Source: Halomonas campaniensis (GTDB lineage Bacteria > Pseudomonadota > Gammaproteobacteria > Pseudomonadales > Halomonadaceae). From it: DNA of 64,000 nt. The notes beneath the pieces were generated by a model. It was not told where the DNA came from, made no database searches, and worked only from the letters and a program-made list of their open reading frames with translations. A program made the translations under genes and the position numbers. Of the stretch, positions 22,868 to 55,486 are shown piece by piece (position 1 is the stretch's first letter; each line of letters starts with the position of its first letter). The stretch covers positions 1-64,000 of the forward strand of contig NZ_JACHZF010000006.1 of NCBI RefSeq assembly GCF_014193375.1, in the 5' to 3' direction.

Positions 22868-23800
22868 ATGCCTGCCACCCCCTCCTCCCGGATGGCCACC
22901 CTGTGGCTCGCCGCCATGCCGCTGCTGTTCGTGGCGCTGTGGAGCACCGGCTTCATCGGTGCCAAGTTCGGCCTGCCCTACGCCGAACCCTTCACCTTCC
23001 TGTTCATCCGCTTCGCCCTGACCCTGGCGCTGCTGGTGCCGCTGGCCCACTGGCTCTCGGGCGAGTGGCCGCGGGGCGCGCGGCTGTGGGGGCATATCGC
23101 CGTCTCCGGCCTGCTGGTGCATGGCGCCTACCTGGGCGGGGTCTTCTATGGCATCTACCTGGGCATGCCGGCGGGGCTCGCCTCGCTGCTGGTCGGCCTG
23201 CAGCCGCTGCTCACCGCCGCCCTGGCCGGCCCGCTGCTCGGGGAGCGGCTCTCGCTGGCGCAGTGGCTGGGGCTGGCGCTGGGGCTGGTGGGCATCACCC
23301 TGGTGCTGGGCAGCAAGCTGGACCCCGGCGAGGCGCTGTTCCAGGGCTTCGGCCTGGGCGCCCTGGCCGCGGTGAGCGTCGCGCTGGCGGGCATCTCCTG
23401 CGGCACCCTCTACCAGAAGCGCTACTGCACCGGCATGCCGCTGCTCTCCGGCACCGTGGTGCAGTACCTGGCCGCCGGGATCCTGCTGGGGATCGGTGCC
23501 CTGCTCTTCGAGGAGCGCAGCGTGGAGTGGACGCCCACCTTCCTGCTAACCCTGGGCTGGCTGGTGCTGGTGCTGTCGATCAGCGCCATCCTGCTGCTGA
23601 TGGCGCTGATCCGGCGGGGCGAGGCGTCCCGGGTGGCCAGCCTCTTCTACCTGGTGCCGCCGGTGACGGCGCTGCAGGCGTGGTGGCTGTTCGACGAGCG
23701 GCTGCCCCTGCCGGCGCTGGCCGGCATGGCCATCGCCATCGCCGGCGTGGTGCTGGTGGTCAGGGGGAAGCCGGCGACAGGCGGCAGGCCGCGTACTTGA
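22868..23800 (+). CDS. EamA/DMT-family transporter
   Basis: The 310-residue protein has ten membrane helices in two EamA repeats. LWSTGFIGAKFGLPYAEPFT at the start and LLVGLQPLLTAALAGPLLGE closing the first repeat are typical, and the second repeat has VTALQAWWLFDERLP. Members export amino acids or metabolites; the substrate is unknown. The start is uncertain: ATG 22868 fits the first helix, ATG 22892 is possible and neither has a strong ribosome site. Its last 41 bp overlap the end of the convergent formate dehydrogenase gene. Confidence 0.8.
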   Translation: MPATPSSRMATLWLAAMPLLFVALWSTGFIGAKFGLPYAEPFTFLFIRFALTLALLVPLAHWLSGEWPRGARLWGHIAVSGLLVHGAYLGGVFYGIYLGMPAGLASLLVGLQPLLTAALAGPLLGERLSLAQWLGLALGLVGITLVLGSKLDPGEALFQGFGLGALAAVSVALAGISCGTLYQKRYCTGMPLLSGTVVQYLAAGILLGIGALLFEERSVEWTPTFLLTLGWLVLVLSISAILLLMALIRRGEASRVASLFYLVPPVTALQAWWLFDERLPLPALAGMAIAIAGVVLVVRGKPATGGRPRT

Positions 23801-26738: not shown

Positions 26739-26748
26739 CTCTGCCTCC

Positions 26749-37447: not shown

Positions 37448-38305
37448 CTAGCGTTGCCTGTGCAGCCGTTCGGCGTGATAGCGCAGGTGGTCCTCGATGA
37501 AGGTGGCGATGAAGAAGTAGCTGTGGTCATAGCCGGGCTGGCGACGCAGGGTCAGCGGATGGTCGTGCTCGGCACACACCGCCTCGAGCCGTTCGGGCCT
37601 GAGCTGCTCCTCGAGGAAGTCGTCGGCCTCGCCCTGGTCGATGAACAGCGGCTGGCTGGAGGCGCCGCGGGCCACCAGCTCGCAGGCGTCATACTGGGTC
37701 CACTTCCCCCGATCCTCGCCCAGGTAGCCGGTGAAGGCCTTCTGGCCCCAGGGGCACTCCGTGGGATTGACGATGGGCGCGAAGGCCGACACCGAGCGGT
37801 AGTGGCCGGGCCGGCGCAGGGCCATCACCAGGGCACCGTGGCCGCCCATGGAGTGACCGCTGATCGACTCGCGGCCGTTCACCGGGAAGTGCTGGCGTAC
37901 CACCGAGGGCAGCTCCTCGGTGACGTAGTCGTACATGCGATAGTGCGTCTTCCAGGGCGCCTGGGTGGCGTTGACGTAGAAGCCGGCGCCGGAGCCGAAG
38001 TCATAGCTGTCATGCTCGCCGGGCAGGTCGGTGCCCCGCGGGCTGGTATCGGGGCAGACGATGGCGATCCCCAGCTCCGCGGCGATGCGGTGGGCACCGG
38101 CCTTCTGCATGAAGTTCTCGTCGGTGCAGGTCAGCCCGGAGAGCCACCAGAGCATCGGCACCCGCTCGGTCTCGGCCTGGGGCGGCAGGTAGATGGCGAA
38201 GACCATCTCGCAGTCCAGCGCCCGGGAACGGTGACGGTAGCGCTTGTGCCAGCCGCCGAAGCTCTTGTTGGCCGATACCAGCTCCAGGTTCTCGGTCATG
38301 GTCAT
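37448..38305 (-). CDS. fghA: S-formylglutathione hydrolase
   Basis: The 285-residue alpha/beta hydrolase matches the esterase D/FghA family over its full length. The oxyanion segment is LWWLSGLTCTDENF, the nucleophile Ser lies in GHSMGGHGAL, the acid in IDQGEADDFLE and the His in GYDHSYFFIATFIEDH. It hydrolyses S-formylglutathione to formate and glutathione, the step after the dehydrogenase encoded 75 bp upstream. AGGAGA precedes ATG 38305. The formate would go to the Fds-type enzyme about 9 kb away. Confidence 0.95.
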   Translation of the reverse strand: MTMTENLELVSANKSFGGWHKRYRHRSRALDCEMVFAIYLPPQAETERVPMLWWLSGLTCTDENFMQKAGAHRIAAELGIAIVCPDTSPRGTDLPGEHDSYDFGSGAGFYVNATQAPWKTHYRMYDYVTEELPSVVRQHFPVNGRESISGHSMGGHGALVMALRRPGHYRSVSAFAPIVNPTECPWGQKAFTGYLGEDRGKWTQYDACELVARGASSQPLFIDQGEADDFLEEQLRPERLEAVCAEHDHPLTLRRQPGYDHSYFFIATFIEDHLRYHAERLHRQR

Positions 38306-38380: not shown

Positions 38381-39599
<1,219 letters not shown>

Positions 39600-40610: not shown

Positions 40611-40976
40611 ATGAAGCGCATCCTCTTCCCGTCGGGCGGTGCCCGCTCCGCCGCCCTTCCCCTGCTGGCCCTCTCGCTGCTCGTGAGCTCCCTGGCCGTG
40701 GCCAACGACTATCCGACGGAGAGCCGGGTCGACTACGTGCTGGGCTGCATGGCCGCCAACGGCAACACCTACCTGACCATGCAGAAGTGCTCATGCAGCA
40801 TCGACGTCATTGCCGAGCACCTCAGCCACGAAGCGTATGAACAGGTCGCCACGGTGATGAGCATGCAGGACCAACGAGGCGAGCTGGGCGTGCTGTTCCG
40901 TACCGAGCGCGGCATGCAGGACCAGGTACAGGCCCTGCATCAGGCCCAGGCCGATGCCAACCTGCGCTGTTTCTGA
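40611..40976 (+). CDS. small exported Cys-motif protein of the alcohol-oxidation region
   Basis: The 121-residue precursor has a signal peptide ending SLAVAND. The mature part has VLGCMAANGNTYLTMQKCSC followed by SID, giving cysteines in a C-x15-C-x-C pattern, and a last cysteine two residues from the end. I associate such proteins with PQQ alcohol dehydrogenase or methylotrophy clusters but cannot name a family. There is no CxxCH, so it does not carry covalent haem. The cysteines could form disulfides or bind metal. GAGGT precedes ATG 40611, and the cytochrome gene begins 6 bp after its stop. Confidence 0.7.
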   Translation: MKRILFPSGGARSAALPLLALSLLVSSLAVANDYPTESRVDYVLGCMAANGNTYLTMQKCSCSIDVIAEHLSHEAYEQVATVMSMQDQRGELGVLFRTERGMQDQVQALHQAQADANLRCF

Positions 40977-40982
40977 CGCCCC

Positions 40983-41393
40983 GTGGCACGCCTCCTGCCC
41001 CCATCCCAGCGTCGACTCCTGACGGGCATCGCCCTCTCGGCGGCCCTGGTCGCGCCCCCTGCGGCGGCCGATGACGCCGACCGCATCCAGGGGGAGCGGC
41101 TGTTTCGCAGCCAGTGCGTGGGCTGCCACAGCCTGGCCCCCGGCGTGCATATTGCCGGCCCCAGCCTGAACGGCCTGATCGGTCGTCCGGCCGGGAGCCT
41201 TCCGGGCTTCGGCTACTCGGCTACCCTGGAGGCCGCCGACTTCGACTGGAACGCCGAGACCCTGGATGCCTTCCTCGCCGCCCCGGCGGAGTTCCTGCCT
41301 GGCAACCGCATGGTGCTGTGGGGGCTCGCCGAGCGGCCCCGCCGGCAGATCATCCGCTACCTCGAGGCCCTTGCGGCCGACGCCGAGCCCTGA
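40983..41393 (+). CDS. periplasmic class I c-type cytochrome
   Basis: The 136-residue precursor starts at GTG 40983, with a signal peptide ending PPAAADD. The haem site is CVGCH in FRSQCVGCHSLAPGVHIAGP, and the region GPSLNGLIGRPAGSLPGFGY is like mitochondrial-type cytochrome c/c2. The distal Met is probably in PGNRMVLWG. It should shuttle electrons, possibly between the XoxF cytochrome and the terminal oxidase. It is coupled to the upstream Cys-motif gene (6-bp gap) and convergent with the ABC permease of the xox operon. Confidence 0.88.
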   Translation: MARLLPPSQRRLLTGIALSAALVAPPAAADDADRIQGERLFRSQCVGCHSLAPGVHIAGPSLNGLIGRPAGSLPGFGYSATLEAADFDWNAETLDAFLAAPAEFLPGNRMVLWGLAERPRRQIIRYLEALAADAEP

Positions 41394-41408: not shown

Positions 41409-42215
41409 TCAGTCCCCGCCGCCCTTGCGCGCCATCAGCCCGCGGGAGGGGTTGTAGCCGAGGATCGCCAGCGCCAGCAGCACCAGGGTCACCGCCACGC
41501 TGATCAGGATCGCCTCCGGATTGACGCGCTCGTAAAGGGCGAAGCGGATCATCTCCACGGCATGGGTGAAGGGATTGAAGGCGGCGATCTGGTAGACCAG
41601 GTGGCTGCCTTCGCGAAGTCGCCACAGCGGGTAGAGGGCCGACGAGAGGAAGAACATCGGGAAGATCACGAAGTTCATGACCCCCGCAAAGTTCTCCAGC
41701 TGGCGCACGAAGGTGGAGAGCAGCAGCCCCAGGGCCCCGACCATGAAGCCGGTGACCAGCAGCGCCGGCAGGACCCACAGGTAACCCATCGGCGGCGCCT
41801 GGATGCCGTACCACCAGGCGATGGCCAGGAAGACGTAGACCTGCACTGCCGAGACCAGGGTGCTGGCCAGCAGCTTGCAGACCAGCAGGTACCAGCGCGG
41901 GAAGGGGCTGACCAGCAGCACCCGCATGCTGCCCATCTCCCGGTCGTAGACCATGGAGAGCGAGCTCTGCATGCCGTTGAACAGCTGGATCATGCCTACC
42001 AGCCCCGGCACGATGTAGACCTCGTAGAGGATGTAGGTCTGGTAGGGCTCGGTCATGGCCACGCCCAGCGCCATGCGGAAGCCGGCGGCGAACACGAACA
42101 GCCAGACCAGCGGCCGAACCAGGGCGGCCAGGAAGCGGCTGCGCTGGTGCAGGAAGCGCAGTAGCTCGCGCCCCACCACGCCGCGCAGGCAGTGCAGCCA
42201 TGGCATCAGTCGCAT
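41409..42215 (-). CDS. ABC-2 type permease of the PQQ-alcohol-dehydrogenase ABC system (PedC-like)
   Basis: The 268-residue protein has six membrane helices of the ABC-2 family, with MVYDREMGSMRVLLVSPFPR as the usual cytoplasmic loop. It matches the group named alcohol ABC transporter permease (PedC-like) that accompanies PQQ alcohol dehydrogenases. It overlaps the ATPase gene by 10 bp and is last in the eight-gene xox operon. What the system moves is not established; a cofactor, metal or metallophore are possible. Confidence 0.85.
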   Translation of the reverse strand: MRLMPWLHCLRGVVGRELLRFLHQRSRFLAALVRPLVWLFVFAAGFRMALGVAMTEPYQTYILYEVYIVPGLVGMIQLFNGMQSSLSMVYDREMGSMRVLLVSPFPRWYLLVCKLLASTLVSAVQVYVFLAIAWWYGIQAPPMGYLWVLPALLVTGFMVGALGLLLSTFVRQLENFAGVMNFVIFPMFFLSSALYPLWRLREGSHLVYQIAAFNPFTHAVEMIRFALYERVNPEAILISVAVTLVLLALAILGYNPSRGLMARKGGGD

Positions 42216-42973
42216 GGCGCCTCCTCGCCGACCAGGCGGTCGAAGGCCTCGCCCAGGGTGGCGACGCCGAGCCGTGCGGTGAGCGTGGCGGATGTGCCGT
42301 CGGCCAGCAGTCGCCCGCGGTGCAGCACCAGCACCCGATCCCCCGGGCGCACCTCGTCGATCAGGTGGGTGGCCCAGAGCACCGCCACGCCCTCCTCGGC
42401 GCAGAGCCGATGGGCGTGCTCGACCAGGTCGCGCCGCGAGGCCACGTCGAGCCCCACGGTGGGCTCGTCGAGCAGCAGCAGCCGCGGCTCGTGGAGCAGC
42501 CCCCGGGCAATCTCCACCCGGCGGCGCTGGCCGCCGGAGAGCCGGCGCACCCGGGTTCGCCGGCGATCGGCGAGGCCCACCCGGGCCAGCTGGGCCTCGG
42601 CCCGGCGGCGCGCCTCGCCGGGGCCCATGCCGTGCAGGGCGGCATGGTAGGCGAGGTTCTGGGCCACGCTGAGATCCAGATCCAGGGTCGGCTGCTGGAA
42701 GACCACGCCGATGCGCGCGTGGGCCTTGACCGCCTGGCGTCTCACGTCGAAGCCGCCGATGCGGATCTCGCCCTGGCGCCGATCATGCAGCCGGGTGATC
42801 AGCGAGAAGAGCGTGGTCTTGCCGGCCCCGTTGGGGCCCAGCAGCACGACGAACTCCCCGGCCGCGATGGCCAGGGAGATCGCCTCCAGCACCGGCCGGC
42901 CGCCATAGGCGAAGCTCAGGTCCTGGACCTCGAGGGCAGGTGCATCCCCATCCCTGGTGGGCGAATCCTTCAC
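42206..42973 (-). CDS. ABC ATPase of the PQQ-alcohol-dehydrogenase ABC system
   Basis: The 255-residue ATPase has Walker A GPNGAGKTT, signature LSGGQRRRVEIARGLL, Walker B LLLLDEPTVGLD and the H-loop His in WATHLIDEV. It is of the drug/polysaccharide-export (ABC-2) class and would pair with the permease gene overlapping its end. Its start overlaps the propeller-protein stop by ATGA (42970-42973). Homologues form the ATP-binding group found in PQQ-dependent catabolism clusters. Confidence 0.88.
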   Translation of the reverse strand: MKDSPTRDGDAPALEVQDLSFAYGGRPVLEAISLAIAAGEFVVLLGPNGAGKTTLFSLITRLHDRRQGEIRIGGFDVRRQAVKAHARIGVVFQQPTLDLDLSVAQNLAYHAALHGMGPGEARRRAEAQLARVGLADRRRTRVRRLSGGQRRRVEIARGLLHEPRLLLLDEPTVGLDVASRRDLVEHAHRLCAEEGVAVLWATHLIDEVRPGDRVLVLHRGRLLADGTSATLTARLGVATLGEAFDRLVGEEAPCD

Positions 42974-43977
42974 GGTTCGACGATCACCCCCCAGGGGAAG
43001 CGCCCCACCGGGATCGAGCGGGTCGCCCGCAGGCCATCGACCTCGATCACGGTGACGTCGCCGCTCACCCCGTTGGTGGTATAGAGGCGGCTCTCGTCAC
43101 CGTTGAGGGCCAGGTGCCAGACCCGCTGCCCGACCAGGATGGTATCGAGCACCTCGTAGGTCTGCTGGTCCACCACCGCCACCCGGTTGGAGGGCCCCAG
43201 GGCCACGAAGGCGTAGCGCCCGTCGGAGGTCAGGGCAACCCCCACCGCCTGGACCGTCTCCCGGGGTACCCCCGGCACGTCGAAGCGGATGGTGTGCTTG
43301 ACGTCGAAGGTCTCCTGCATGTCGAGGATCGACACCGTGCCGGCGATCTCCGCCGAGACCCAGGCCTCTCGACCGTCGTGGGTGAACTCGACGTGGCGCG
43401 GCCGCGCCCCCACCAGGCGATGGTGGACCGCCTCCATGCGCTCGGCATCGATGATATGCGCCATGTTGGAGGTCTCGGTGGTGGAGACCAGCCAGCGACC
43501 GTCGGGGCTGATGCCGAGCCCCTCGGGCTCGACCCCCACGGGGATCTCGGTGACCAGGGTCCGGGACTCGTAGTCGAGCACCGAGACGATGTTGTCATCC
43601 TCGTTCGAGACATAGATGTAGGGGCGGTTGGGATCCACCCGAATCACCTCGGGATCGTCGCCGGAGGCCTGGCTGCGCACCACCCGGAGGCTCTCCAGGT
43701 CGATCATGTCGATGGACTCGTCGTCACCCACCGCGACGAACAGTTCGCTGCCGTCGCTGGAGAAGGCCATGGAGCGCGGCCGGCGGCCGACAGGGATGGT
43801 CTCCACCACCTCGAGGCTCTCGCCGTCGATGACCGAAATGGTGTTGTCCTTCTCATTGGAGACAAAGATGCGTTCCGCCTGGGCCGCCAGCGGCAGTGCC
43901 AGCAAGCCGCCCAGGGTCAGCCCGAGCAGGCCATGTCGGGAAGCGGAGAACCAGCCCCGCGGAGTCAGAAGCGACAT
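42970..43977 (-). CDS. periplasmic YVTN-type beta-propeller protein, PQQ-catabolism-associated
   Basis: The 335-residue precursor has a signal peptide ending PLAAQAE and then seven repeats like RIFVSNEKDNTISVIDGESL and YIYVSNEDDNIVSVLDYES, the YVTN/NHL-like blade pattern. Such proteins accompany PQQ alcohol dehydrogenase ABC systems. A scaffolding, cofactor-delivery or substrate-binding role is possible but unproven. Its start lies within the last 13 bp of the upstream binding-protein gene. Confidence 0.88.
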   Translation of the reverse strand: MSLLTPRGWFSASRHGLLGLTLGGLLALPLAAQAERIFVSNEKDNTISVIDGESLEVVETIPVGRRPRSMAFSSDGSELFVAVGDDESIDMIDLESLRVVRSQASGDDPEVIRVDPNRPYIYVSNEDDNIVSVLDYESRTLVTEIPVGVEPEGLGISPDGRWLVSTTETSNMAHIIDAERMEAVHHRLVGARPRHVEFTHDGREAWVSAEIAGTVSILDMQETFDVKHTIRFDVPGVPRETVQAVGVALTSDGRYAFVALGPSNRVAVVDQQTYEVLDTILVGQRVWHLALNGDESRLYTTNGVSGDVTVIEVDGLRATRSIPVGRFPWGVIVEP

Positions 43978-45176
43978 TGTGATTCCCCCTCATCGGCGCC
44001 GAGTGCATCGAGTGGTGTACGAGGATGCAGGTAGCCCTCCTGGGGCGAGACCGACGCCACCATGCGCGGGCCGGTGATCAGGATCGGCTGGCGAAGCTGG
44101 TGGTTCCAGGTGCGGTAGCTGACCGGGAGCCCGAGGTAGCCGGCAAGCTCGAACTCCTCGCCGAGCATGTACTCGAGCACGACCTCCCGCTCGGCGGAGC
44201 CGGTGCGCGCCGCCGCCTCCCCCAGCGACCGCACGGCGAGCCAGGCGCCGAAGTCGCGCGGCGTCATCCAGCGGTCGGCCAGCTTCTCGAAGCGCCGCTG
44301 CAGCTGTACCGCGCCCCAGGACTCGTGGGCGCGGTACCAGGCGGTGGCGATCAGTCCCTGGGTCCCCACCACCGGGCGTGGCTCCCAGGTCTGGTAGGGA
44401 AAGTACTCGCCGAAGTAGTCGGTCTCGTCGGCGACCACCAGGACGTCGTGGTCCGGGAAGTCCTGCACGAACACCGGGATCTCCCGCTGGATGGCATGGA
44501 AGCCCCCCTCGGCGCGACGCGCCATGGGGTCGTGGGGCCACATCCTGTCGCCGACGATGCGATGACCGTAGCGCTCGGCCGCGGCGCGCAGCGTCTCGGC
44601 GAGCCGGCGATCCTCGTCGGTGTTGCCGTAGACCAGCGCCCAGCGCTCCCACTGCTTGTAGCCGAGGAACTGGGCCAGCGCATCGGCCAGCATCCGCCGG
44701 CTCGGCGTGGTGTGATAGAGGTTGGGGTGGCAGGCCTCCCCGCGCAGGGCGTCATCCGGCGCCCAGGCGTTGAACACCACCCGGTCGCCCAGGGCCGGAT
44801 GCCCCATCACTGCCTGCAGCGCATCAAAGGGCAGCCCGCTGATGATCCAGTCGACTCCCTCGTCGATGAGCTGCTCCAGCGCCTCACCGACGTCGTCTCC
44901 CAGCGCCACCTCGGCCTCGTGCAGCACGAACTCCTGACCGAGAAACTGTGCCGTGGCGTTGTTGTCGTTGATGCCGAGCCGGGCCCCCTGGCGGCCCTCG
45001 TCGTCGAGAACCGGGTCGAGCACCGAGAGCGGCTCCCGGTCGTCCGGCCGTTCCATGCCCAGGTAGCCCAGGGTCAGGGTGTCGGGGGTGTCGGCAGGCA
45101 GCGCCACCGACCAGCCCAGGCCGATGACGATCCCTCCCACCGCCAGCCAGCGGGGGGGGAGTGGCAAGGTTGTCAT
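43965..45176 (-). CDS. periplasmic ABC substrate-binding protein, PQQ-alcohol-dehydrogenase type
   Basis: The 403-residue precursor has an N-terminal membrane/signal segment (about 10-27) and a type I periplasmic-binding fold with LTLGYLGMERPDDREPLSVL, GARLGINDNNATAQFLGQEF and DHDVLVVADETDYFGEYFPY. It fits the group of ABC binding proteins restricted to PQQ alcohol dehydrogenase loci. Such binding proteins normally serve importers, whereas the permease here is ABC-2 type; this mismatch is typical of these loci and unexplained. It overlaps the propeller gene by 13 bp. Confidence 0.85.
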   Translation of the reverse strand: MTTLPLPPRWLAVGGIVIGLGWSVALPADTPDTLTLGYLGMERPDDREPLSVLDPVLDDEGRQGARLGINDNNATAQFLGQEFVLHEAEVALGDDVGEALEQLIDEGVDWIISGLPFDALQAVMGHPALGDRVVFNAWAPDDALRGEACHPNLYHTTPSRRMLADALAQFLGYKQWERWALVYGNTDEDRRLAETLRAAAERYGHRIVGDRMWPHDPMARRAEGGFHAIQREIPVFVQDFPDHDVLVVADETDYFGEYFPYQTWEPRPVVGTQGLIATAWYRAHESWGAVQLQRRFEKLADRWMTPRDFGAWLAVRSLGEAAARTGSAEREVVLEYMLGEEFELAGYLGLPVSYRTWNHQLRQPILITGPRMVASVSPQEGYLHPRTPLDALGADEGESQCRF

Positions 45177-45250
45177 GCAGGCTCCTCAGGCAGCTCGATG
45201 CCGCCGCTGTCGTGGTCTTGTCGTTGTTATCACGTGCCCGCGCACCGCTG

Positions 45251-45904
45251 CTAGGGCATCCGCTCCATGATCACTCGCACCATCCGGCCGAGTCGTTCCT
45301 CCAGCAGGTAGGGCTGCTCGCACATGGCCGGCAGCGCCTGCTGGCGCTTCTGGAAGGTGCGCTGCTCCCAGAACAGCCCTTCCGAGAGTCGCTCGATGTC
45401 CGCCGGATCCGCCGCGTCGTCGGCGCGCAGCGCCTCCAGGTCATCGACCATGCCAGAGATGGTGTCGAGCCTCGCCATCTGGGCCCGGGCCGCCTGGCGG
45501 GTAGCCGCGATGGCCCGGCCGCGCTGGCGGTCGGTGAGCTCGAACAGCCCGGCGAACAGCAGCGTCAGCCGCGCTTCTGCCTCGTCATCATCCACCGAGG
45601 CAACGAAGTCGCGCACCCGCGTCAGCGCCTGCTCCTCGGGGGTGTCGCGAGCCGTGGCAAAGCGCGCCACGCGACCGACCTCCTCGTCCTCCCACCAGCG
45701 CTGCTCCAGCTCGTCCAGCGAGGGGCCAGTCCAGATGGTGCCCCAGGCAAGCTCCGGAATCAGGCGCTGGACGCACGGCCAGTCGGGAGGACCGGCCGCC
45801 GCACGCTGTGCCTCGACTGGCGTTCCGGAGAGCAGCAGTCCGGTGGCGAGCGCCAGGGCCAGCAGCGAGGACATGGCACCCGCCGGAAACCGCGCGGGGC
45901 TCAT
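45251..45904 (-). CDS. unknown exported helical protein of the xox operon
   Basis: The 217-residue precursor has a signal peptide ending TPVEAQR and a mature, largely helical acidic protein. Only two mature cysteines are visible (PPDWPCVQRLIPELAWG and PAMCEQPYLLEER), which could form a disulfide. No family is recognised. It overlaps the upstream xoxJ-like gene by ATGA and precedes the binding-protein gene by 74 bp, so it is fully embedded in the operon and should act in the periplasm with XoxF or the ABC system. Confidence 0.65.
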   Translation of the reverse strand: MSPARFPAGAMSSLLALALATGLLLSGTPVEAQRAAAGPPDWPCVQRLIPELAWGTIWTGPSLDELEQRWWEDEEVGRVARFATARDTPEEQALTRVRDFVASVDDDEAEARLTLLFAGLFELTDRQRGRAIAATRQAARAQMARLDTISGMVDDLEALRADDAADPADIERLSEGLFWEQRTFQKRQQALPAMCEQPYLLEERLGRMVRVIMERMP

Positions 45905-46743
45905 GACTCATCTCCCGCGCCGGGCGACAGCAGTCGACCGCGGCGGTCGAGCAGGGGCACTCCATACTCCGCGAGGATGGCGTGGATCTCGTCCTGGCGG
46001 CGGTCGATGAAGTCGTTGATCCAGTCCTTCCAGTGGGGCTCGCCGCGGCGGATCCCCATGGTGATGCGGTAGTCCAGATGCGCACCCGAGTCGTCATCGA
46101 CCAGGGGAATGACCCGGAGCGGTGGTTCCTGACGGGCAGCGTAGTACCCCGCCAGCGGCCCCCACAGCACGGCTCCCTCGGTGCGGCCGGACATGACATC
46201 CTCGATGGCGTCGCGCACCGGGGCACGGACCCGGGTATCGACCATCAGGGGATAGCCCTGGAGGGTGGCGCCGGTACGGCGCAGGGGCACCAGGGGGGGC
46301 GTCTCGGTCACCACGCCGATACGTCGCCCCTGCAGCAACGGGTCCGTCAGGCTTTCGACCCGGAGGTCGGAATCCTCGGGCACCACCAGGGAGTAGACGG
46401 AGCGATAGACCTCGTTGGAGTTCTGCACGAACTCATAGCCGGCCACGGCACCGATCATGACGTCGCAGACCCTCAGCTCCAGGGTGTTGCGCACGAATCC
46501 CATCACCTGAGGGGACCAGACATAGGCCAGGGGTACGCCCAGGTCCTCGGCCATCAGCTCGGCGATACGGTTCTCGAAGCCCTCGCCCGCCTCGTTGCTG
46601 AAGGGCAGGTTGTTGCCATCGGCACAGACTCGCAGCGCCTCGCGCGCCTGGCGCTCCGGCAGGTCGGCCACCGCCGGCACAGAGGCACCGCCGAGAAGCA
46701 GCGCGACCAGCAGCGGCCAGCGTCGCAGAAATGTTCCACCCAT
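45901..46743 (-). CDS. xoxJ: XoxJ/MxaJ-like periplasmic binding protein
   Basis: The 280-residue precursor has a signal peptide ending VPAVAD and a family-3 solute-binding fold: LRVCADGNNLPFSNEAGEGF, LELRVCDVMIGAVAGYEFVQ and GRTEGAVLWGPLAGYYAARQ. This is the quinoprotein dehydrogenase-associated binding-protein group to which MxaJ and XoxJ belong. XoxJ is thought to help activate or mature XoxF in the periplasm rather than serve a transporter. It lies 51 bp after the cytochrome stop, in the order xoxF-xoxG-xoxJ. Confidence 0.85.
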   Translation of the reverse strand: MGGTFLRRWPLLVALLLGGASVPAVADLPERQAREALRVCADGNNLPFSNEAGEGFENRIAELMAEDLGVPLAYVWSPQVMGFVRNTLELRVCDVMIGAVAGYEFVQNSNEVYRSVYSLVVPEDSDLRVESLTDPLLQGRRIGVVTETPPLVPLRRTGATLQGYPLMVDTRVRAPVRDAIEDVMSGRTEGAVLWGPLAGYYAARQEPPLRVIPLVDDDSGAHLDYRITMGIRRGEPHWKDWINDFIDRRQDEIHAILAEYGVPLLDRRGRLLSPGAGDES

Positions 46744-46794
46744 GCGTCCTCCGGGTCCGGATAGGAAAACCAGGCCAGGCGCTAGCCCTCGTCC

Positions 46795-47274
46795 CTAGTC
46801 ATCTTGGTTGCCATCACCGCTTTCCGCCTCATCCTGCATCGACTCGATGATCTGGGGACGGCCTCGACCCAGCCCCCCCTCGCCGCGAGCCAGCATGTAA
46901 CTGAAGATGTAGGGGATATTGCGCATCACGTAGGGGTCGTCAGCGAAGGAGGGCATCACCTGGCCCGGCTGCACCTCACGCCCCGCCGCCACGGTGCCGG
47001 CAAAATCGGCCCAGCCGCGGCGCTCTGCGGCGCGGATCAGGCTGGGCGCGAAGGATGAGCCGAGCCCATCCGGACCATGACAGGCCATGCAGGCCCGGGT
47101 GTAGACGATGTAGCCTTCATAGGTGTTGGGGTCGACCTTGCCGTCCTCGACCACGTAGTCGCCTGGTCGATAGGGCGCTTCCCCCAGTTCCTGCGCCGCC
47201 GTGGCGGGGACAAGCAGCAGGCCCAGCAGGGCGACAGCCAGGGCAGGCCAGTAAGTGCGCTGGAATACCATCAT
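46795..47274 (-). CDS. xoxG: cytochrome c, electron acceptor of XoxF (XoxG-like)
   Basis: The 159-residue precursor has a signal peptide ending PATAAQE. The haem motif is CMACH in RACMACHGPDGLGSSFAPSL, and the axial Met is probably in VMPSFADDPY. The DYVVEDGKVDPNTYEGYIVY segment ahead of the haem and the position after xoxF fit the cytochrome cL/XoxG group, which takes electrons from the reduced quinone. ATG 47274 has AAGGA upstream (an adjacent ATG at 47271 cannot be excluded). The acidic tail is short. Confidence 0.85.
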   Translation of the reverse strand: MMVFQRTYWPALAVALLGLLLVPATAAQELGEAPYRPGDYVVEDGKVDPNTYEGYIVYTRACMACHGPDGLGSSFAPSLIRAAERRGWADFAGTVAAGREVQPGQVMPSFADDPYVMRNIPYIFSYMLARGEGGLGRGRPQIIESMQDEAESGDGNQDD

Positions 47275-47377
47275 GCAATCGGTCCTTATCGGGGCACCGG
47301 GGCGGTGCCCCGGAGTCGGATAGGTCGACGGGGCATGGCACTTCGTCCATGCCCCGCCGGGGAGCATCAAGCCGGTC

Positions 47378-49201
47378 TCAATCTGGCAGGGCGAAGACCG
47401 TCAGCACCCCGCCCAGCTTGGTGTAGTCACCCAGGGTCGCGAAGGCGCTAACTGCCCCCAGGCCCTCCTCGGGATCCTCGAGCCCCGCCGCCAGGCCGAT
47501 CCCGGCCCAGCCGCCGACCCCGGAGAGCACTCCGACGTACTGCTTGCCCTCGTGCATGAAGGTGTTGATGTTGCCGATGATGCCGGAGGGGGTCTTGAAG
47601 CGCCACAGCTCCTCGCCGGTCTCGATATCCACCGCCTTCACGTGCCCCTCGAGGGTGCCGTAGAAGGCCAGGTCGCCGGCCGTGGCCAGGGCACCGCTCC
47701 ACACCGCAAAGCGCTCGTCGACCTCCCAGACCACCTCACCGGCCACCGGATCCCAGGCGATGAAGCTGCCCAGTCGGCCTTCCATCTCGCCGTTCTGCGT
47801 CGGCGCCGGCATCATGGTGAGCGTCGCCCCCACATAGGGCTGGCCCGCCACGTAGTCGGTCTCGTAGGGCTCGTAGTTCATGCAGATCCGGTTGATCCCG
47901 GCGTAGAGGAGCCCGGTCTTCGGCGAATAGGCGCTGGGCTGCATGTTCTTGGCGCCCATGGCGGTAGGACAGATGTCGGTGGTGTTGACGTTCACCCCCT
48001 GGCGGTAGGTGCTGTAGGCCTCGTTGACGTTGGGACGGCCGGTCTCCAGGTCGTAGCTGTCGGCCCAGTTGGTCTCGGGGGCAAACTTCTCGGCCACCAG
48101 CAGCTCACCGGTCTCGCGGTCCAGCAGGAAGCCGAAGCCGGTGCGATCGATGATCGCCAGCCCCTTGCGCTGCTCGCCGTTGAATTCGACGTCGATCAAC
48201 TGGTTCTCGTTGACCCCGTCATAGTCCCATTCGTCGAAGGGCACCTTCTGGTAGACCCACTTGGTCGAGCCGTCGTTGGGATCACGGGCGAACACGGTGA
48301 TCGCCCACTTGTTGTCTGCCGGCTCGCCATCCTTGGTGCGCTGGTCCGGGTTCCAGGTGCCCGGGTTGCCGGTGCCGTAGTAGATCAGGTCGAGGTCGGG
48401 GTCATAGGTAACCCAGCCCCAGGGGGCACCGCCGCCGCGCTCCCACTCGCCCTCGGGCCAGGTGCTCACCCCGAGATCGGCCTCGCCGATGGGCTCGCCC
48501 AGCATCAGGGTGGTGTCGGGATCGATCAGCACCTCGTCATCCGGGCCGGTGGAGTAGCCGCGCCAGGCCATCTCCCCGGTCTCGACATCATAGGCCGTGA
48601 GGTGGCCACGGATGCCGAACTCGCCGCCACTGATGCCGACGATGACCTTGTCATGGACCACCAGGGGCGACATGGTATTGGTCTCGCCGACGGTATGATC
48701 GCCATTGCTGACATCCCAGAGCAGCTCACCGGTCTCGGCATCCAGCGCGATCAGGGTGTTGTCGGACTGGCCGAGGAACAGCCGCCCGTCGGCATAGGCC
48801 AGGCCACGGTTGACGGTATCGCAACACATCACCGGGATGACCCGGGAGTCCTGGTCGGGTTCGTAGCTCCAGATGACTCGCCCCTCGTCCTCCAGGTCCA
48901 GGGCGAACACCTTGTTGGGGAACGGCGTATGGATATAGAGGCGTCCGTCGCCGACATAGAGGGGCCCGCCCTCGTGGCCGCGCAGGACGCCGGTGGAGAA
49001 CTGCCAGACCGAGCGCAGCTCATTCACGTTGTCGCGGTTGATCTGGTCGAGCTGGCTGTAGCGATTGCCCTGGTAGTTGCCTAGCTGGGTGGGCCAGTAT
49101 TCGGGGTTGTCCTGCAGTTCAAGCAGGTTCTGGTTGGCATGGGCAGCGGCTGCCGAGAGCATTCCCGCGGCCACTGCCGTGCTGAGGACTTTACGAAGCA
49201 T
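47378..49201 (-). CDS. xoxF: lanthanide-dependent PQQ methanol dehydrogenase
   Basis: The 607-residue precursor (signal peptide to about residue 22) is an eight-bladed quinoprotein closely matching XoxF over its whole length, e.g. STGVLRGHEGGPLYVGDGRL, VIPVMCCDTVNRGLAYADG and the end GGVLTVFALPD. The vicinal disulfide is Cys126-Cys127. The catalytic base is Asp326 in DEWDYDGVNE; Asp328 two residues on is the extra ligand that marks lanthanide-type enzymes, where calcium-type MxaF has Ala. Other likely metal ligands are Glu194 (GGEFG) and Asn279 (GTGNPG). It oxidises methanol (and often ethanol or formaldehyde) in the periplasm. ATG 49201 has GGAGAC. It heads the eight-gene operon and diverges from pqqA. 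No mxaF/mxaI is in the window. Confidence 0.93.
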   Translation of the reverse strand: MLRKVLSTAVAAGMLSAAAAHANQNLLELQDNPEYWPTQLGNYQGNRYSQLDQINRDNVNELRSVWQFSTGVLRGHEGGPLYVGDGRLYIHTPFPNKVFALDLEDEGRVIWSYEPDQDSRVIPVMCCDTVNRGLAYADGRLFLGQSDNTLIALDAETGELLWDVSNGDHTVGETNTMSPLVVHDKVIVGISGGEFGIRGHLTAYDVETGEMAWRGYSTGPDDEVLIDPDTTLMLGEPIGEADLGVSTWPEGEWERGGGAPWGWVTYDPDLDLIYYGTGNPGTWNPDQRTKDGEPADNKWAITVFARDPNDGSTKWVYQKVPFDEWDYDGVNENQLIDVEFNGEQRKGLAIIDRTGFGFLLDRETGELLVAEKFAPETNWADSYDLETGRPNVNEAYSTYRQGVNVNTTDICPTAMGAKNMQPSAYSPKTGLLYAGINRICMNYEPYETDYVAGQPYVGATLTMMPAPTQNGEMEGRLGSFIAWDPVAGEVVWEVDERFAVWSGALATAGDLAFYGTLEGHVKAVDIETGEELWRFKTPSGIIGNINTFMHEGKQYVGVLSGVGGWAGIGLAAGLEDPEEGLGAVSAFATLGDYTKLGGVLTVFALPD

Positions 49202-49553: not shown

Positions 49554-49625
49554 ATGTGGACCAAGCCTGCCTATCAGGATCTACGCCTCGGCTTCGAGGT
49601 GACGCTGTACATTTCCAATCGCTGA
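49554..49625 (+). CDS. pqqA: PQQ precursor peptide PqqA
   Basis: A 23-residue peptide, [20 protein letters not shown] then SNR, preceded by AGGAGG. It matches PqqA: Glu15 and Tyr19 in E-V-T-L-Y are the two residues that are cross-linked by PqqE and become PQQ. It is first in the pqq operon and is followed by a stem-loop with a T-run before pqqB. Confidence 0.95.
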
Positions 49626-49651: not shown

Positions 49652-49688
49652 GGCTGACGTCGCCCCAGGGTGCGTCGGCCTTTTCTTT
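49652..49688 (+). terminator. attenuator-like stem-loop between pqqA and pqqB
   Basis: GGCTGACG (49652-49659) pairs with CGTCGGCC (49673-49680) through one G-T pair, and TTTTCTTT follows at once. It would stop a share of transcripts after pqqA, giving more precursor peptide than enzymes. Confidence 0.75.
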
Positions 49689-49729
49689 GCGCCTGCGCCG
49701 GCAGGCCGACCCGGACCGGGGAGAGTGAC

Positions 49730-50659
49730 ATGCAGGTATTGGTGCTTGGCGCCGCGGCGGGGGGCGGCTTTCCGCAGTGGAACTGCAACTGTCGCCTCTG
49801 TCTCGGCGTGCGCCGCGGGGAGCTCGCCGCCAGGCCGCGCACCCAGTCCTCGATTGCCATCAGCAGCGACGGTGAGCGCTGGCTGCTCTGCAATGCCTCT
49901 CCCGACATCCGCACCCAGCTGGCGGCGAACCCTGAACTTCACCCCCGGAAGGTGCCTCGGGACAGCGGCGTCGCCGCCGTCCTGCTGGTCGATGGCCAGA
50001 TCGACCACGTCACCGGGCTGCTGTCGTTGCGCGAGGGGTGCCCGCTCGACGTCTGGTGCACGCCCAACGTCCATCAGGACCTGAGCAGCGGCTTCCCGCT
50101 CTTCCCGATGCTAGAGCACTGGCAGGGCGGCCTGGCCTGGCAGTCCATCGGGATCGACGAGGCTCACCTGGAGGCCACCTTCGAGGTGCCGGCCTGCCCG
50201 GGGCTGAGCTTCACCGCCGTGTCCCTGACCAGCAATGCCCCGCCCTACTCGCCGCGGCGAGGAGCGCCCACGCCGGGCGACAACATCGGCCTGCTGATCG
50301 AGGACAGGCGCCAGGGGACGCGACTCTTCTATGCCCCGGGCCTCGGCCAGCTGGACGACCGGGTGCGAGGCTACCTGGCCCGGGCCGACTGCGTGCTGGT
50401 GGATGGCACCCTGTGGCACGACGACGAGCTGATCCGGGCCGGCGTCGGGCAGGCGACCGGGCGAGACATGGGCCATCTGGCACTGGCCGGCGAGGATGGG
50501 CTGCTGGAGGAGCTCGGTGCCCTGCCGGCGGCGACCCGCCGGGTTCTTATCCATATCAACAACACCAACCCGATTCTCGATGAGCGCTCCGAGGAGCATG
50601 CCACCCTGACCGCGGCAGGCATCGAGGTGGCCCACGACGGCATGCGCCTGAAGGTGTGA
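49730..50659 (+). CDS. pqqB: PQQ biosynthesis protein PqqB
   Basis: The 309-residue metallo-beta-lactamase-fold protein begins [20 protein letters not shown], the PqqB signature, with CRLC next to it, and carries [20 protein letters not shown] and [13 protein letters not shown]. It is thought to hydroxylate the Glu-Tyr intermediate using Fe(II). ATG 49730 has GGGAGAG upstream; an in-frame ATG at 49670 lies inside the stem-loop and is rejected. It is followed by pqqC after 73 bp. Confidence 0.96.
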
Positions 50660-50732: not shown

Positions 50733-51506
50733 ATGACTCGCATCGCGTCGACGTCAGCCCAGGAAGAGGCCATGAGCCCGCCTGACTTCCGCGAGGCCCT
50801 GATGGCCAAGGGCGCCTACTACCACATCCACCACCCCTATCAGGTCGACATGGCCGAGGGACGCGCCACCCCGGAACAGATCCGCGGCTGGGTGGCCAAC
50901 CGCTTCTATTACCAGATCAACATCCCCCAGAAGGACGCCGCCCTGCTGGCCAACTGCCCGGATGCCGCCTTCCGCCGCCGCTGGATCCAGCGCCTGCTCG
51001 ACCACGATGGCCATGACGCCGACGGCGGCGGCATCGAGGCCTGGCTGACCCTGGGCGAGGCCGTAGGACTCTCCCGCGACGAGCTCTGGTCCCAGGAGCA
51101 TGTCCTGCCGGGAGTGCGCTTCGCGGTGGATGCCTACGTCAACTTCGTGCGCCGCGCGGACTGGCGCGAGGCAGCGATCTCCTCGCTCACCGAGCTCTTT
51201 GCCCCGGAGGCCCACCGCAGTCGCCTGGCGACCTGGCCGACCCACTATCCCTGGATCGACGCGGCCGGCTACGGCTACTTCCGCAAGCGGCTCACCGAGG
51301 CGCGACGGGACGTGGAACACGGGCTCGAGGTGGCCCTGGCCGTCTGTACCACCCGGGTGGCCCAGGATCGTGCCCTGGAGATCCTGCAGTTCAAGCTCGA
51401 CGTGCTGTGGTCGATGCTCGATGCCATGACCCTGGCCTACCAGCTCGGCCGACCGCCCTACCACACCGTCACCGACCAGCGGGTCTACCATCGGGGGGTG
51501 TCGTGA
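50733..51506 (+). CDS. pqqC: pyrroloquinoline-quinone synthase PqqC
   Basis: The 257-residue helical-bundle oxidase has the PqqC pattern: [60 protein letters not shown] and [13 protein letters not shown]. It catalyses the final ring closure and eight-electron oxidation to PQQ with oxygen. The first 13 residues are a non-conserved lead, and ATG 50772 is an alternative start. The stop overlaps pqqD by TGATG. Confidence 0.96.
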
Positions 51507-51793
51507 TGGCGGCCGCGATACGCGGGACCAGTGTCTGCCGCCTGCGCCCGGGCTGGCGCCTGCAGTGGGAAGAGGCCCAGCAGCGCCATGTGCTGCTCTA
51601 TCCCGAGGGCATGGTGCAGCTCAACGACACCGCCGGCGCCATCCTCGGCGAGCTCGACGGCCAGCGCGATGTGGAGGCCGTGATCGGCCTCCTCGAGGCA
51701 CGCTATCCCGAGGCACCGGCAGGGGCCATCGGCCAGGACGTCCACGACTTCCTCGTCGAGGCCGCACAACAGGGATGGATCCAGCATGACTGA
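51506..51793 (+). CDS. pqqD: PqqA-binding chaperone PqqD
   Basis: The 95-residue protein is a RiPP recognition element: [40 protein letters not shown] and [19 protein letters not shown]. It binds PqqA and presents it to PqqE. ATG 51506 overlaps the pqqC stop by one base, and its own end overlaps pqqE by 8 bp, so pqqC, D and E are translationally coupled. Confidence 0.94.
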
Positions 51794-52937
51794 CCGCTCC
51801 GATACCGCCGCCATCAACGCCCACAGCGGGGCGCCGCTGTGGCTGCTCGCCGAGCTCACCTACCGCTGCCCCCTGCAGTGTGCCTACTGCTCCAACCCGC
51901 TGGATTTCGCAGGTGTAAGGGAGGAGCTGTCCACCGAGGAGTGGCTCGACCTCCTGGCCCAGGCCCGCGAGATGGGCGCCGTGCAGCTGGGCTTCTCCGG
52001 GGGGGAGCCCCTGGTGCGCCAGGACCTGGAGCAGCTGGTGGCCGAGGCCCGCCGGCTCGGTTTCTATACCAACCTGATCACCTCGGCCCAGGGCCTCGAC
52101 GAGGCACGCATCGCCGCCCTGCGCGATGCCGGGCTCGACCATATCCAGATCAGCCTGCAGGCCTCCGACCCCGACGTGGCCGCGGCGGTGGCCGGCTCCC
52201 CCAAGGCGCATGCCAGGAAGCTGGCCATGGCCCGGGCGGTGAAGGCCGCCGGCTACCCCATGGTGCTCAACGTGGTGCTGCACCGCCATAACATCGACCA
52301 GCTCGATGCCATCATCGCCCTGTGCGACGAGCTCGGGGCCGATGCCGTGGAACTGGCCAACTGCCAGCTCTACGGCTGGGCCCATCTCAATCGGGCGGGG
52401 CTGCTGCCGAGCCGCGAGCAGCTCGAGGCCGCGGAGGCGACCACCGTCCGCTGGCGGGAGCGGCTCGCCGAGAAGGGCCGTGCCATGGACCTGCTGTTCG
52501 TGGTGCCCGACTACTACAACGATCGACCCAAGGCCTGCATGGGGGGCTGGGGCTCGATCTTCATGACCGTGGCCCCGGACGGGGCCGTCCTGCCCTGCCA
52601 CAGTGCCAGGTTGCTGCCGATGACCTTTCCCAGCGTCCGCGACAGGCCGCTGCGCGAGATCTGGTACGACAGCGAGGCCTTCAACCGCTACCGCGGCGAT
52701 GCCTGGATGCAGGAACCCTGCCGAAGCTGCGACGAGCGCCATCGCGACGTCGGCGGCTGTCGCTGCCAGGCCTACCTGCTGACCGGCGATCCTGCCGCCA
52801 CCGACCCGGTCTGCTCGCTCTCCCCTGATCACCACCTGATAGAGGCGGCCCGCCGTGAGGCCGAAGGTGGCGTCGGCACGGTCGGGGAACTGATACCGCG
52901 CAACGTCCACGAGTCGCGGGTCTTCTGCCGCTCATGA
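51786..52937 (+). CDS. pqqE: radical SAM PqqA peptide cyclase PqqE
   Basis: The 383-residue enzyme has the radical SAM motif C28-x3-C32-x2-C35 in [15 protein letters not shown], the SAM-binding [10 protein letters not shown], and a C-terminal SPASM domain with auxiliary Fe-S cysteines ([36 protein letters not shown]). It links the Glu and Tyr side chains of PqqA. The stop overlaps pqqF by ATGA (52934-52937). Confidence 0.96.
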
Positions 52938-55486
52938 ACGAGGCGGTGTCGGCCGATGATCCGGAGGAGGCCCTGCTGGAGGCGGGATTGCCCCCCGGCA
53001 GTCGCTGCGCCATTCGCCGCCTGTCCAACGGCCTGAGGATAGTGGCGGCGGAGGTTACCGAGGCCCGGCAGCTGCGCCTGGTGGGCGCGGTGAGCGTCGG
53101 CTATCTCGACGAGCCTGCCGACTGCCGAGGGCTCGCCCACCTGCTCGAGCACGGGCTCTTCCTCGGCTCCGCCCGCGCCCCCGCCGAGGGCGAGTTCGCC
53201 GCCTGGATCGGCGAGCAGGGTGGCCGCTACAACGCCCACACCGACGAGAGCGTCACCGACGTCCATCTCCACCTGCCGCCGGAGGCCGCCGACGAGGGGC
53301 TGCAGCGACTCATCGACCTGCTCGGCCAACCGCGCCTCGACGCCGAACGCCTCGCCCGGGAGGTTGCCGTCCTCGACGCGGAGTTTCGGGCGCGGCTGGC
53401 CGACCCGGCCCTGCATCGCCTCGCCGCCCTGGGTCGGTTCTTCCGCCCCGACCACCCTGCCCGGCTCTGTCATGCCGGTCACCGCGGCACCCTCGGCGGC
53501 ACACCCCGGGCGCTCGCGGCCAGGCTTGCCGCCTTCCATCGTCGCCACTATCGCAGCGAACGGATGGCTCTGGCGATGCTGGGCCCGCTGCCCCTGGAGG
53601 AGCAGCTCGCCCTGCTGGCGCGCCACGGCGCCCGGCTGCCTTCGGGAGGCGGCGCCCAGCCCCCCCGCGTCTGGCGCTGGCGCGACCCCGCCGCGCTGGC
53701 CTGGTGCCCACCGACGCCACCGCCTCCCGATGGCGGCACGCTGCTGGAGCTGATCTGGCCGCTTCCCGACGCCGTCGCCCGAGCCGGACAGCGCCAGCTC
53801 ACCGCCCTGGCGGCGCGACTGGCCGATGGCCAGCTGGCGGCCCGGCTGCAGGCCACCACCAAGCTGCAGGACCTCGCCGTCGACCTGGCCCCCGAGGGTA
53901 CCGGCGCCGCCCTGGCCATGCGCCTGTCGCTGGAGGCGCCGGTGCCCGACCTGGCGGCCCTGCTGGCGGTGTGCCGGCAGGCGCCGGGGCACGCCCTCGA
54001 GGAGCGGCTACCGCCACCTGCCCCGACGCCCATCGACCTGGATGCCTGGCCGCGTCGCCGGGCGTGCCGGCTCGCCACCGATCCCGCCTCGCCAGCCGAC
54101 GCCACGCCACTGGCCCCCTGGCTTGCCGGTGACCGATGCCGCGTCCTGTGGCGATGCGCCCCGGACGCAAGTGACTCCTGGTCGACCCTGGATGAGACGG
54201 GGACCCACTGGGGCCCGCTCGCCTTGCCTGTCGAGTCTCCCGGGTCCAGCTCGCCGGGGCACCTTCCCCCACCCCTGCCGCTCTCCCCCGGGCCAGCACC
54301 CGAACCACCGCCGGCCGGGAGGGCCAGCCCGGGATGCCTTCGCCGCGACACCCGCCTCACGCTCTGGTGGGGCGGGCCGGCCTGGCCGCTCCCCACAGGC
54401 GACGCCACCTGGTGCCTGGGCTGGGCCGCCGACCCGAGCGGCCACGAGGAGCGGCTCAGGCGCTGGCATCGACGCACCCTCGCGCTGCGCCAGGCCGCCG
54501 CCGCCCAGGGGCTCAGCCTGGACCTGGCCTCGGATGCCGATGGCGACTGGCTCATGGCCCGGGGCAATCCCCGACGGATCGTCTCCCTGGTGGCGCAAGC
54601 GCTGGCCGCCTGGTCGACGGAACCCGGCGATCATCACGAGGACGCACCGGCGCAGGGTCTGCTCGCCAGGGCCCTGCTGCAACAGCTGGAGACCGGGCCT
54701 GCCGTCGGCGAGCCCGCCCCGCACCTGCTCGGCTGGGCCAGCGGCGAGCTTTGCCCCCGGGAAGTCGTGCAGGACGCGGAGCGTTTCGCCGACCTCCTGG
54801 CGGCGCCGGCCGGCACTACCCAGGCGGCGGCCGCCAGGGTGGAGGCGGATGGCGAGTCCTGGCTGCCCCCTCAGGGCGAGGAGCGTGCGGTGATGCTGGA
54901 GGTGAGGGGCGCCGACGCCAGTCCACGCAGCCGCTGGGTGCTCAAGCTGCTGGCCGCCTGCCACGACGCCGCCTTCCATCATGAGATGCGCCAGCGCCAT
55001 GGCTTCGGCTATGTGGCGGCGGTACGCTATCGCGAGGCCGCGGGCTGGCCCAGGCTCGGCTATGTGGTGCAGTCCCCCTGGGCCAGCGTGACCGAGCTGC
55101 GGCGGGCGATCGAGGACTTCCTCGTCCGGCGCAGCGAGACACTGGCTCGGCCGGACGCGACCGAACTGGCGCGCCTCAAGCGTGGCATGCTGGCTCGATA
55201 CGGGGTGCCCGAGACCCACCGGGAAGCCATCGAGCGCATCTGGCAGGTCCTGCGGCGGCACCGCGGCCCCGACGAACCGGAGGGCTGGCTAGCCCCCTGG
55301 GAAGCGGAGCTGACGGTGCTGGCAGGGCTCGGCGTCGACGACCTGGCCCTGCAGGCCCGCGCCCTGGCGGACGCCGCCCTTCCCCGCCACTGGTGGTACC
55401 ACACGCCCCCCTCCCCGCCATTGCCTGACAGGAACGCACTAGTGTTCCCTAGGGACAATCCCCCCTCGCGGCGCCACCTAGACTGA
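52934..55486 (+). CDS. pqqF: M16-family peptidase PqqF
   Basis: The 850-residue protein is an insulinase-type protease. The inverted zinc motif HxxEH is HLLEH in [13 protein letters not shown] (about 70-74), with the downstream Glu region in [18 protein letters not shown]. PqqF is considered to trim the modified PqqA. Between the two halves lies a long Pro/Ser/Gly-rich linker (about 430-465), unusual for the family and probably flexible. The C-terminal M16 half lacks the zinc motif, as normal. It closes the pqq operon. Confidence 0.88.

Follow-up and report, generated by a model that had tools for sequence, protein, structure and literature searches.

The window analysed in this study, a 64,000-nucleotide stretch of DNA from Halomonas campaniensis (contig C6 of a 3.93 Mb assembly in 77 contigs), contains eight genes on the minus strand (positions 41409-49201) encoding XoxF, a cytochrome c, XoxJ, an exported protein (open reading frame 4; ORF4), a binding protein, a beta-propeller, an ATPase, and an ABC-2 permease. 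This locus is, very probably, a self-contained operon for lanthanide import and methanol oxidation. By its sequence, the ATP-binding cassette (ABC) set is the known lanthanide transporter, LutABEF in Methylorubrum extorquens and PedA1A2BC in Pseudomonas putida; while the transporter itself is already known, the conserved fused layout of xoxF and importer, and the sparsely studied helper ORF4, are new.

The curated cut-offs of NCBIfam were exceeded by six of the eight proteins, among them all four of the ABC set: TIGR03863 (binding protein), TIGR03866 (propeller), TIGR03864 (ATPase), and TIGR03861 (permease), the signature of LutABEF/PedA1A2BC, were co-directional and tightly packed in one run. 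Judging from the coordinates, genes overlap at four junctions: XoxJ/ORF4 (4 bp), binding protein/propeller (13 bp), propeller/ATPase (4 bp), and ATPase/permease (10 bp). Shared strand, order, and tight junctions therefore bore out the original prediction from the sequence of the window, in which an eight-gene xoxF run was joined to this ABC set. The earliest possible start of the cytochrome gene is a TTG, and the ATG at 47274 is likelier. A promoter scan of the locus found no promoter, a terminator scan found five terminator-like sites against 2.1 expected (to which we give little weight), and an Rfam search of positions 36000-58000 gave no match.

XoxF possesses the lanthanide-type motif W325-D-Y-D328; E194, N279, D326, and D328, located by this motif and by alignment to 6oc5, are presumably the metal ligands. 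The closest solved relatives, 6oc5 and 6dam, are both lanthanide (Ln)-dependent XoxF. The adjacent XoxJ scored over its family cut-off, and the adjacent cytochrome resembled the xoxG family at a score under its cut-off (TIGR03874). The window genome gave a single match to TIGR03075 (three of six candidates scored) and, when searched with the window XoxF, a single one at E ≤ 1e-60 (seven of seven scored); with one dehydrogenase of the TIGR03075 family detected, no calcium-type fallback was found.

The arrangement is not due to chance, because in all 26 of the Halomonadaceae that carried them, xoxF, ORF4, and the permease gene were co-oriented and separated by similar distances throughout (1523-1715 and 5091-5486 bp). 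Among 151 genomes of this family, the permease was found in 31 at E ≤ 1e-60 (30 over cut-off), and XoxF at least 83% identical to that of the window in 26, the same 26 that had ORF4; in one of these (G507), the permease match was short with an internal TGA. The fused order was present in 26 of the 27 Halomonadaceae with XoxF, the exception (G511) having a XoxF of 62% identity on the strand opposite to the permease and no ORF4. A second permease was found in seven of the 26, along with a second dehydrogenase 40-42% identical to the window XoxF, and ORF4 occurred just once. When named relatives were ranked by permease (best 80 of at least 572), the closest were Halomonas ramblicola (95%), Halomonas sp. 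LBP4, H. heilongjiangensis, and Billgrantia species; the top 14 loci were all from halomonads, 12 with the complete eight-gene order and two (L215 and L224) truncated where their contigs end. The operon loci of this set include L221 (Litchfieldella anticariensis) and L225 (Aidingimonas halophila). Homologues of pqq genes, for pyrroloquinoline quinone (PQQ), were located beyond xoxF on the opposite strand in all 12 full-length loci. In a quick tree of permeases, with long branches flagged, the xox-type halomonad sequences formed one clade beside mostly methanotroph sequences (support 80), and the only second halomonad permease in the tree (G383 C4) grouped with seven permeases of f3, a family in the order of the window and taken as Pseudomonas (support 94). 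No published description of the halomonad operon was found in a literature search outside of which most subscription papers lay, and PMC11166783 mentions xoxF and Halomonas in unrelated contexts.

The substrate of the ABC set is a question largely answered in print. Deletion of pedA1A2BC in P. putida raised the La3+ need for PedH-dependent growth approximately 100-fold, and growth via the calcium/PQQ enzyme PedE was unchanged (PMC6839425). Mutants of M. extorquens in lutE or lutF failed to grow on methanol with La before suppressors arose, those in lutA, lutB, or lutG grew poorly, and those in lutA, lutE, or lutF had La deposits in the periplasm, in contrast to the cytoplasmic La of the wild type (PMC7391723). 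A 2026 review describes PedA1A2BC as the lanthanide transporter and P. aeruginosa PAO1, having no rare-earth-dependent dehydrogenase, as devoid of the set (PMC12997753). The original prediction, which was to fall if the ABC genes were dispensable for La-dependent growth, had proposed lanthanide, a lanthanophore, or PQQ as the substrate: the published homologue mutants fail or lag, and favor lanthanide, free or chelated, while the unchanged growth via PedE speaks against PQQ.

According to a statement from 2019, every strain known at that time to produce Ln-dependent enzymes carried homologues of the set (PMC6839425). We extended this to 398 evenly drawn Pseudomonadota genomes, kinship being ignored in the counts. 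Presence of the permease was defined by the curated cut-off of TIGR03861, passed by none of 14 control genomes (at E ≤ 0.001, 349 of the 398 matched, a general ABC-2 background), and was found in 56 genomes at 57 places, with a gap in scores from 334 to 119 bits. A TIGR03075 dehydrogenase (E ≤ 1e-60) was detected in 96 genomes, including all 56 with the permease. The column of the lanthanide-type Asp was read in 150 sequences from the 150 listed places, no more than three candidates being scored per genome, so that further dehydrogenases may be missed; G207 and G324, without a classified sequence, were outside the 38 classified permease-less genomes. At least one Asp-type dehydrogenase was found in 56/56 permease-bearing versus 11/38 permease-less genomes, the full WD[YF]DGxNE motif in 55/56 versus 7/38, and calcium-type residues (Thr, Ser, or Ala) in 21/56 and 27/38, respectively. 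These counts indicate that the ABC set follows lanthanide-type enzymes, and not PQQ or calcium-type enzymes, a positive answer to a question raised by the original prediction.

Physical linkage was also surveyed. Among the TIGR03075 dehydrogenases listed, one of any type was located within 12 kb of the permease at 36 of the 57 places and within 25 kb at 41, and none was listed on the same contig for 11. The adverse outcome that the set is unlinked to XoxF in most genomes has to be read with caution, because the set also serves enzymes of the PedH/ExaF type. Contiguous eight-gene order was limited, among the survey places, to three halomonad xox loci (G000, G314, and G383:C25).

That a type I binding protein is paired here with an ABC-2 permease had been regarded as odd. 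The pairing itself was confirmed (Peripla_BP_6 and ABC2_membrane), and the model of the binding protein (predicted local distance difference test score, pLDDT, 82) had a type I periplasmic fold near LivJ, AmiC, and UrtA; the oddness was not, because the pairing is family-wide. A binding-protein match was found in 53 of the 57 permease loci (none in L069, L093, L108, and L114), ruling out chance juxtaposition. The C-terminal tail of this family, [LM]Dx[LM]GxDxx[ED]xxC, was conserved in 53/53 survey sequences, including those of Ped-type loci, and in 66/67 named sequences. This acidic tail, which includes D390, D395, and E398 of the window protein, is a candidate metal or docking site, although it was poorly modelled (mean pLDDT 48 for residues 381-390 and 74 for residues 391-400).

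We propose that the LutA/PedA1, LutB/PedA2, LutE/PedB, and LutF/PedC proteins would act as an ABC transporter moving Ln3+, free or chelated, from the periplasm to the cytoplasm; the import direction is inferred here from the published mutants of homologues. XoxF with Ln and PQQ would oxidise methanol and deliver electrons to the cytochrome, XoxJ probably aids maturation of XoxF, and ORF4, as a LutG-type periplasmic helical protein, would partner the XoxF branch. Judging from the genes nearby, a glutathione pathway followed by formate dehydrogenase may convert formaldehyde to CO2. No hexulose-phosphate synthase of the ribulose monophosphate pathway was found over cut-off in the window genome, so that methanol may plausibly serve for energy only. 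A single operon of importer and enzyme would co-express supply and use.

Several points weigh against this proposal. No solved structure was found for the binding protein (single-sequence search) or the permease (profile search), and the ligand is a predicted one. The window genome had no close homologue of LutH (query, the receptor of L110; best match, 27% over 133/846 residues) and no convincing lanmodulin (query, the EF-hand protein of L112; E 0.04), leaving entry through the outer membrane without explanation; the P. putida authors found this step unexplained in their organism too (PMC6839425). Furthermore, seven of the 11 permease-less genomes with the lanthanide Asp had it in the full motif (G223, G229, G249, G250, G294, G338, and G360), and these may obtain lanthanide otherwise, perhaps by another uptake route, or not use it.

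The same side of the balance includes the general character of the permease. ABC-2 permeases are mostly exporters, that of the window also matched exporter families such as DrrB and NodJ, and NCBIfam carries the name 'alcohol ABC transporter'; the set might therefore export a chelator or a toxic aldehyde, the binding protein being a periplasmic accessory. The authors of a study on strain RH AL1 saw no cytoplasmic deposits, and wrote that the ABC homologues 'might have another function' (PMC8316094). Export is nevertheless improbable: pedA1A2BC mutants of P. putida still grow on the oxidised intermediates phenylacetaldehyde and phenylacetate, a dedicated binding protein marks importers according to the same authors (PMC6839425), and La remained in the periplasm of the lutA, lutE, and lutF mutants (PMC7391723). 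We regard as still less credible that the set is a complex for lanthanide handling or enzyme maturation, which strips Ln from chelators and hands it to the periplasmic dehydrogenase with no net import. The periplasmic location of the dehydrogenases, the slowed but not abolished growth after loss of lutA or lutB, and the site of Ln release from the chelator, which the M. extorquens authors left open, are compatible with such a complex, whereas the reported location of La, cytoplasmic in wild-type cells and as periplasmic deposits in the ABC mutants, is not what it predicts (PMC7391723). Transport of PQQ instead of metal (export after synthesis, or recapture) was rejected as extremely unlikely: despite the divergent pqq genes beside xoxF in the window and in all 12 full-length named halomonad loci, and the 'PQQ-associated' label of the set in NCBIfam, loss of PedA1A2BC leaves PedE growth unaffected (PMC6839425), and 40 of the 96 genomes with a PQQ dehydrogenase lacked the permease.

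ORF4 of the proposed lanthanide-import operon matched no family of Pfam or NCBIfam at E ≤ 0.001, and a Pfam scan of 21 members of its family gave weak matches only, each in one or two members. All members of the family share a WPC shortly after the predicted mature N-terminus and a further Cys close to the C-terminus; the two Cys are Cys44 and Cys195 in full ORF numbering. AlphaFold modelled the protein as a long hairpin of helices (pLDDT 88), for which no match was found in PDB at E ≤ 0.001 (best, 0.16). Profile matches to designed helical bundles (best E 6.7e-5) were taken as coiled-coil noise. Relatives were also found in 116 plasmid records, mostly from Sinorhizobium; the labels shown read 'hypothetical protein'.

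A profile from 21 homologues detected ORF4 in 32 of the 398 survey genomes, all inside the 56 with the permease. At 29 of the 57 permease loci, ORF4 was found in the stretch fetched: 24 as the immediate, co-directional neighbour of the permease gene, three inside the operon of halomonads, and two (G299 and G325) approximately 14-15 kb away; in G004, G059, and G187, it was elsewhere in the genome. At L110-L112, lanmodulin-type EF hands were found downstream of ORF4, with a TonB receptor in between at L110 (the one locus checked for it), and the permeases of these loci grouped with that of Methylobacterium sp. J-076. ORF4 homologues are next after the permease in loci with lanmodulin-type EF hands and in Methylobacterium sp. 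J-076; ORF4 of the window is between xoxJ and the binding protein. Since the gene order of AM1 is lutF-lutG-lutH-lanM (PMC7391723), and the locus tags of the LutF and LutG homologues of strain RH AL1 are adjacent (PMC8316094), ORF4 is referred to as LutG-type, a name given by position.

Among permease-bearing genomes, a XoxF-type enzyme, a type called from phmmer scores against the XoxF of the window, was found in 31 of the 32 with ORF4 versus two of the 24 without it (G070 and G246; Fisher's p 3e-12, which ignores descent). The genome with ORF4 and no XoxF (G271), in which the only enzymes were one of the MxaF type and one of the ExaF type, was counted against the link. G217, whose classified enzymes are without the full WD[YF]DGxNE motif, was counted as having XoxF, which is frame-broken: two adjacent matches in two frames at C1:2767971-2769768, approximately 10 kb from the permease, due to a frame break or an assembly error. 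From this association, we infer that ORF4 is a partner of the XoxF branch, and not of the transporter in general. Two results count against this assignment: on the permease tree, from which the second permease row of G383 was excluded, only four of seven contrasts were informative (each of the four in agreement with the link; sign test p 0.125), and no ORF4 match was found in seven transporter-bearing methanotroph genomes (those behind L228, L229, L233, L236, L238, L259, and L287), while the genomes of Methylocapsa, Methylobacterium, and Halomonas gave one.

A more specific role is possible, if on balance doubtful: ORF4/LutG may be a periplasmic family of disulfide-held helical hairpins dedicated to linking the shared importer with XoxF, passing Ln3+ or an Ln-LutA complex to XoxF/XoxJ. 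Genomes with only PedH/ExaF would need no such link, and the operon of Halomonadaceae, in which ORF4 is flanked by xoxJ and lutA, would represent the physically fused form. The association with XoxF gives a concrete hypothesis for lutG, a published but functionally blank gene.

Comparison with known systems clarified what is particular to the halomonad locus. The lut cluster of M. extorquens AM1 (lutA-lutI and lanM) shares the same four transporter proteins and, judging by the position of ORF4 homologues, a putative LutG, and the Methylobacterium-like loci L110-L112 have its order. In AM1, however, lut is apart from xoxFGJ (locus tags 1778-1787 and 1740-1742, respectively; PMC7391723), whereas these genes form one run in the window, and lutC/lutD are located between propeller and ATPase, where the window has no gene; a complete AM1-type cluster with the LutH receptor and LanM was not found in the window genome. 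The pedA1A2BC genes of P. putida KT2440 belong to the same four families, and serve the ethanol-type enzyme PedH, unlike those beside XoxF in the window; in the branch around G383 C4, only G383 among 13 tree rows has ORF4, at its xox copy. In alphaproteobacterial lut-xox loci (Bradyrhizobium and others), the order is binding protein, propeller, ATPase, permease, ORF4, and then xoxJ, some with xoxG and xoxF; homologues of lutA, B, E, F, and G have been reported in Bradyrhizobium and Sinorhizobium (PMC12628762). ORF4 there follows the permease with xoxJ on the opposite strand, in contrast to its position between xoxJ and the binding protein among eight co-directional genes in Halomonadaceae. At L244 (Rhodospirillaceae bacterium SYSU D60014), xoxF, xoxG, and xoxJ matches are separated by a gap from those to the binding protein, propeller, ATPase, permease, and ORF4, and pqq genes come last. 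Almost all of these genes share a strand, so that this alphaproteobacterial locus resembles the halomonad arrangement.

For studies of the bacterial import of rare earths and the loading of their enzymes, this layout offers a single-operon system in salt-tolerant, non-model bacteria. Since one dehydrogenase of this family was detected in the window genome, import and enzyme loading could be analysed there without a calcium backup. The survey, in turn, separates the parts of the transporter (LutABEF) from those apparently belonging to the XoxF branch (ORF4/LutG, possibly orfY; see below). The features of the locus and its surroundings are listed in Table 1.

Table 1. Genes of the xoxF-importer locus and related features of the window
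Feature	Position	Strand	Basis
xoxF, lanthanide-type PQQ methanol dehydrogenase, 607 residues	47378..49201	-	TIGR03075 682 bits (cut-off 480)
xoxG-like cytochrome c	46795..47370	-	CMACH haem motif; Cytochrome_CBB3 PF13442; TIGR03874 90 bits, under cut-off 162
xoxJ, family 3 periplasmic binding protein	45901..46743	-	TIGR03871 274 bits (cut-off 212); closest solved chain 6onp XoxJ
ORF4, LutG-type exported helical protein, 217 residues	45251..45904	-	homologues at permease loci; no Pfam/NCBIfam family
lutA/pedA1-type type I binding protein	43965..45176	-	TIGR03863 438 bits (cut-off 414); model pLDDT 82
lutB/pedA2-type YVTN beta-propeller	42970..43977	-	TIGR03866 439 bits (cut-off 287)
lutE/pedB-type ABC ATPase	42206..42973	-	TIGR03864 342 bits (cut-off 302)
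lutF/pedC-type ABC-2 permease	41409..42215	-	TIGR03861 420 bits (cut-off 241)
cytX, cytochrome c550-like	40983..41393	+	NF043008 47 bits, under cut-off 240; conserved next to the operon in Halomonadaceae, with a match in each of the 14 named loci
orfY, small exported Cys-rich protein	40611..40976	+	no Pfam/NCBIfam match; recurs at xox loci
pqqA, 23-residue precursor peptide	49554..49625	+	translation
pqqB, divergent from xoxF	49670..50659	+	gene order
pqqC	50733..51506	+	TIGR02111 357 bits (cut-off 240)
pqqD, earliest possible start overlaps pqqC	51407..51793	+	gene order
pqqE	51786..52937	+	gene order
pqqF-like peptidase	52934..55486	+	TIGR02110 183 bits, under cut-off 320
frmA-like glutathione-dependent formaldehyde dehydrogenase	38381..39550	-	sequence features; homologues near xox genes in other genomes
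fghA-like S-formylglutathione hydrolase	37448..38305	-	sequence features; in Bradyrhizobium loci, homologues adjoin lut genes
NAD-type formate dehydrogenase, FdhA and fused NuoE/NuoF-like subunit	23760..28467	-	TIGR01591 684 bits (cut-off 666); TIGR01959/TIGR01958 under cut-off
TonB receptor resembling catechol-siderophore receptors	4051-6339	+	NF010012 613 bits, under cut-off

Downstream of the operon, cytX is convergent with the permease gene, the gene ends being 15 bp apart (41393-41409), and none of the terminator-like sites listed falls in this gap. The next gene, orfY, encodes a protein with the pattern YPT..R..YV..GCM..NG....CSCS.D, and was found in 13 of the 57 survey loci, all with XoxF/XoxJ-type matches, and in 43 of the 80 named loci, including all 14 of halomonads; 40 of these 43 had XoxF/XoxJ-type matches (of the other three, L215 and L224 stop at a contig end, and L247 had none). 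It might correspond to an orf of the AM1 xox cluster.

On the other side of xoxF, the short precursor is presumably pqqA, given its E..Y pair, and the identities of pqqB, pqqD, and pqqE are likewise assumed from gene order. A GFA-domain protein (glutathione-dependent formaldehyde-activating type) is encoded at 55555-56286 on the plus strand, just 3' of the pqqF-like gene. The frmA-like and fghA-like genes are putatively named from their own sequences. Near the start of the window, the TonB receptor at 4051-6339 was the only match in the window genome to the receptor at the LutH position of L110 (27%), and adjoins a gene for an MsbA-like ABC protein (2131-3966).

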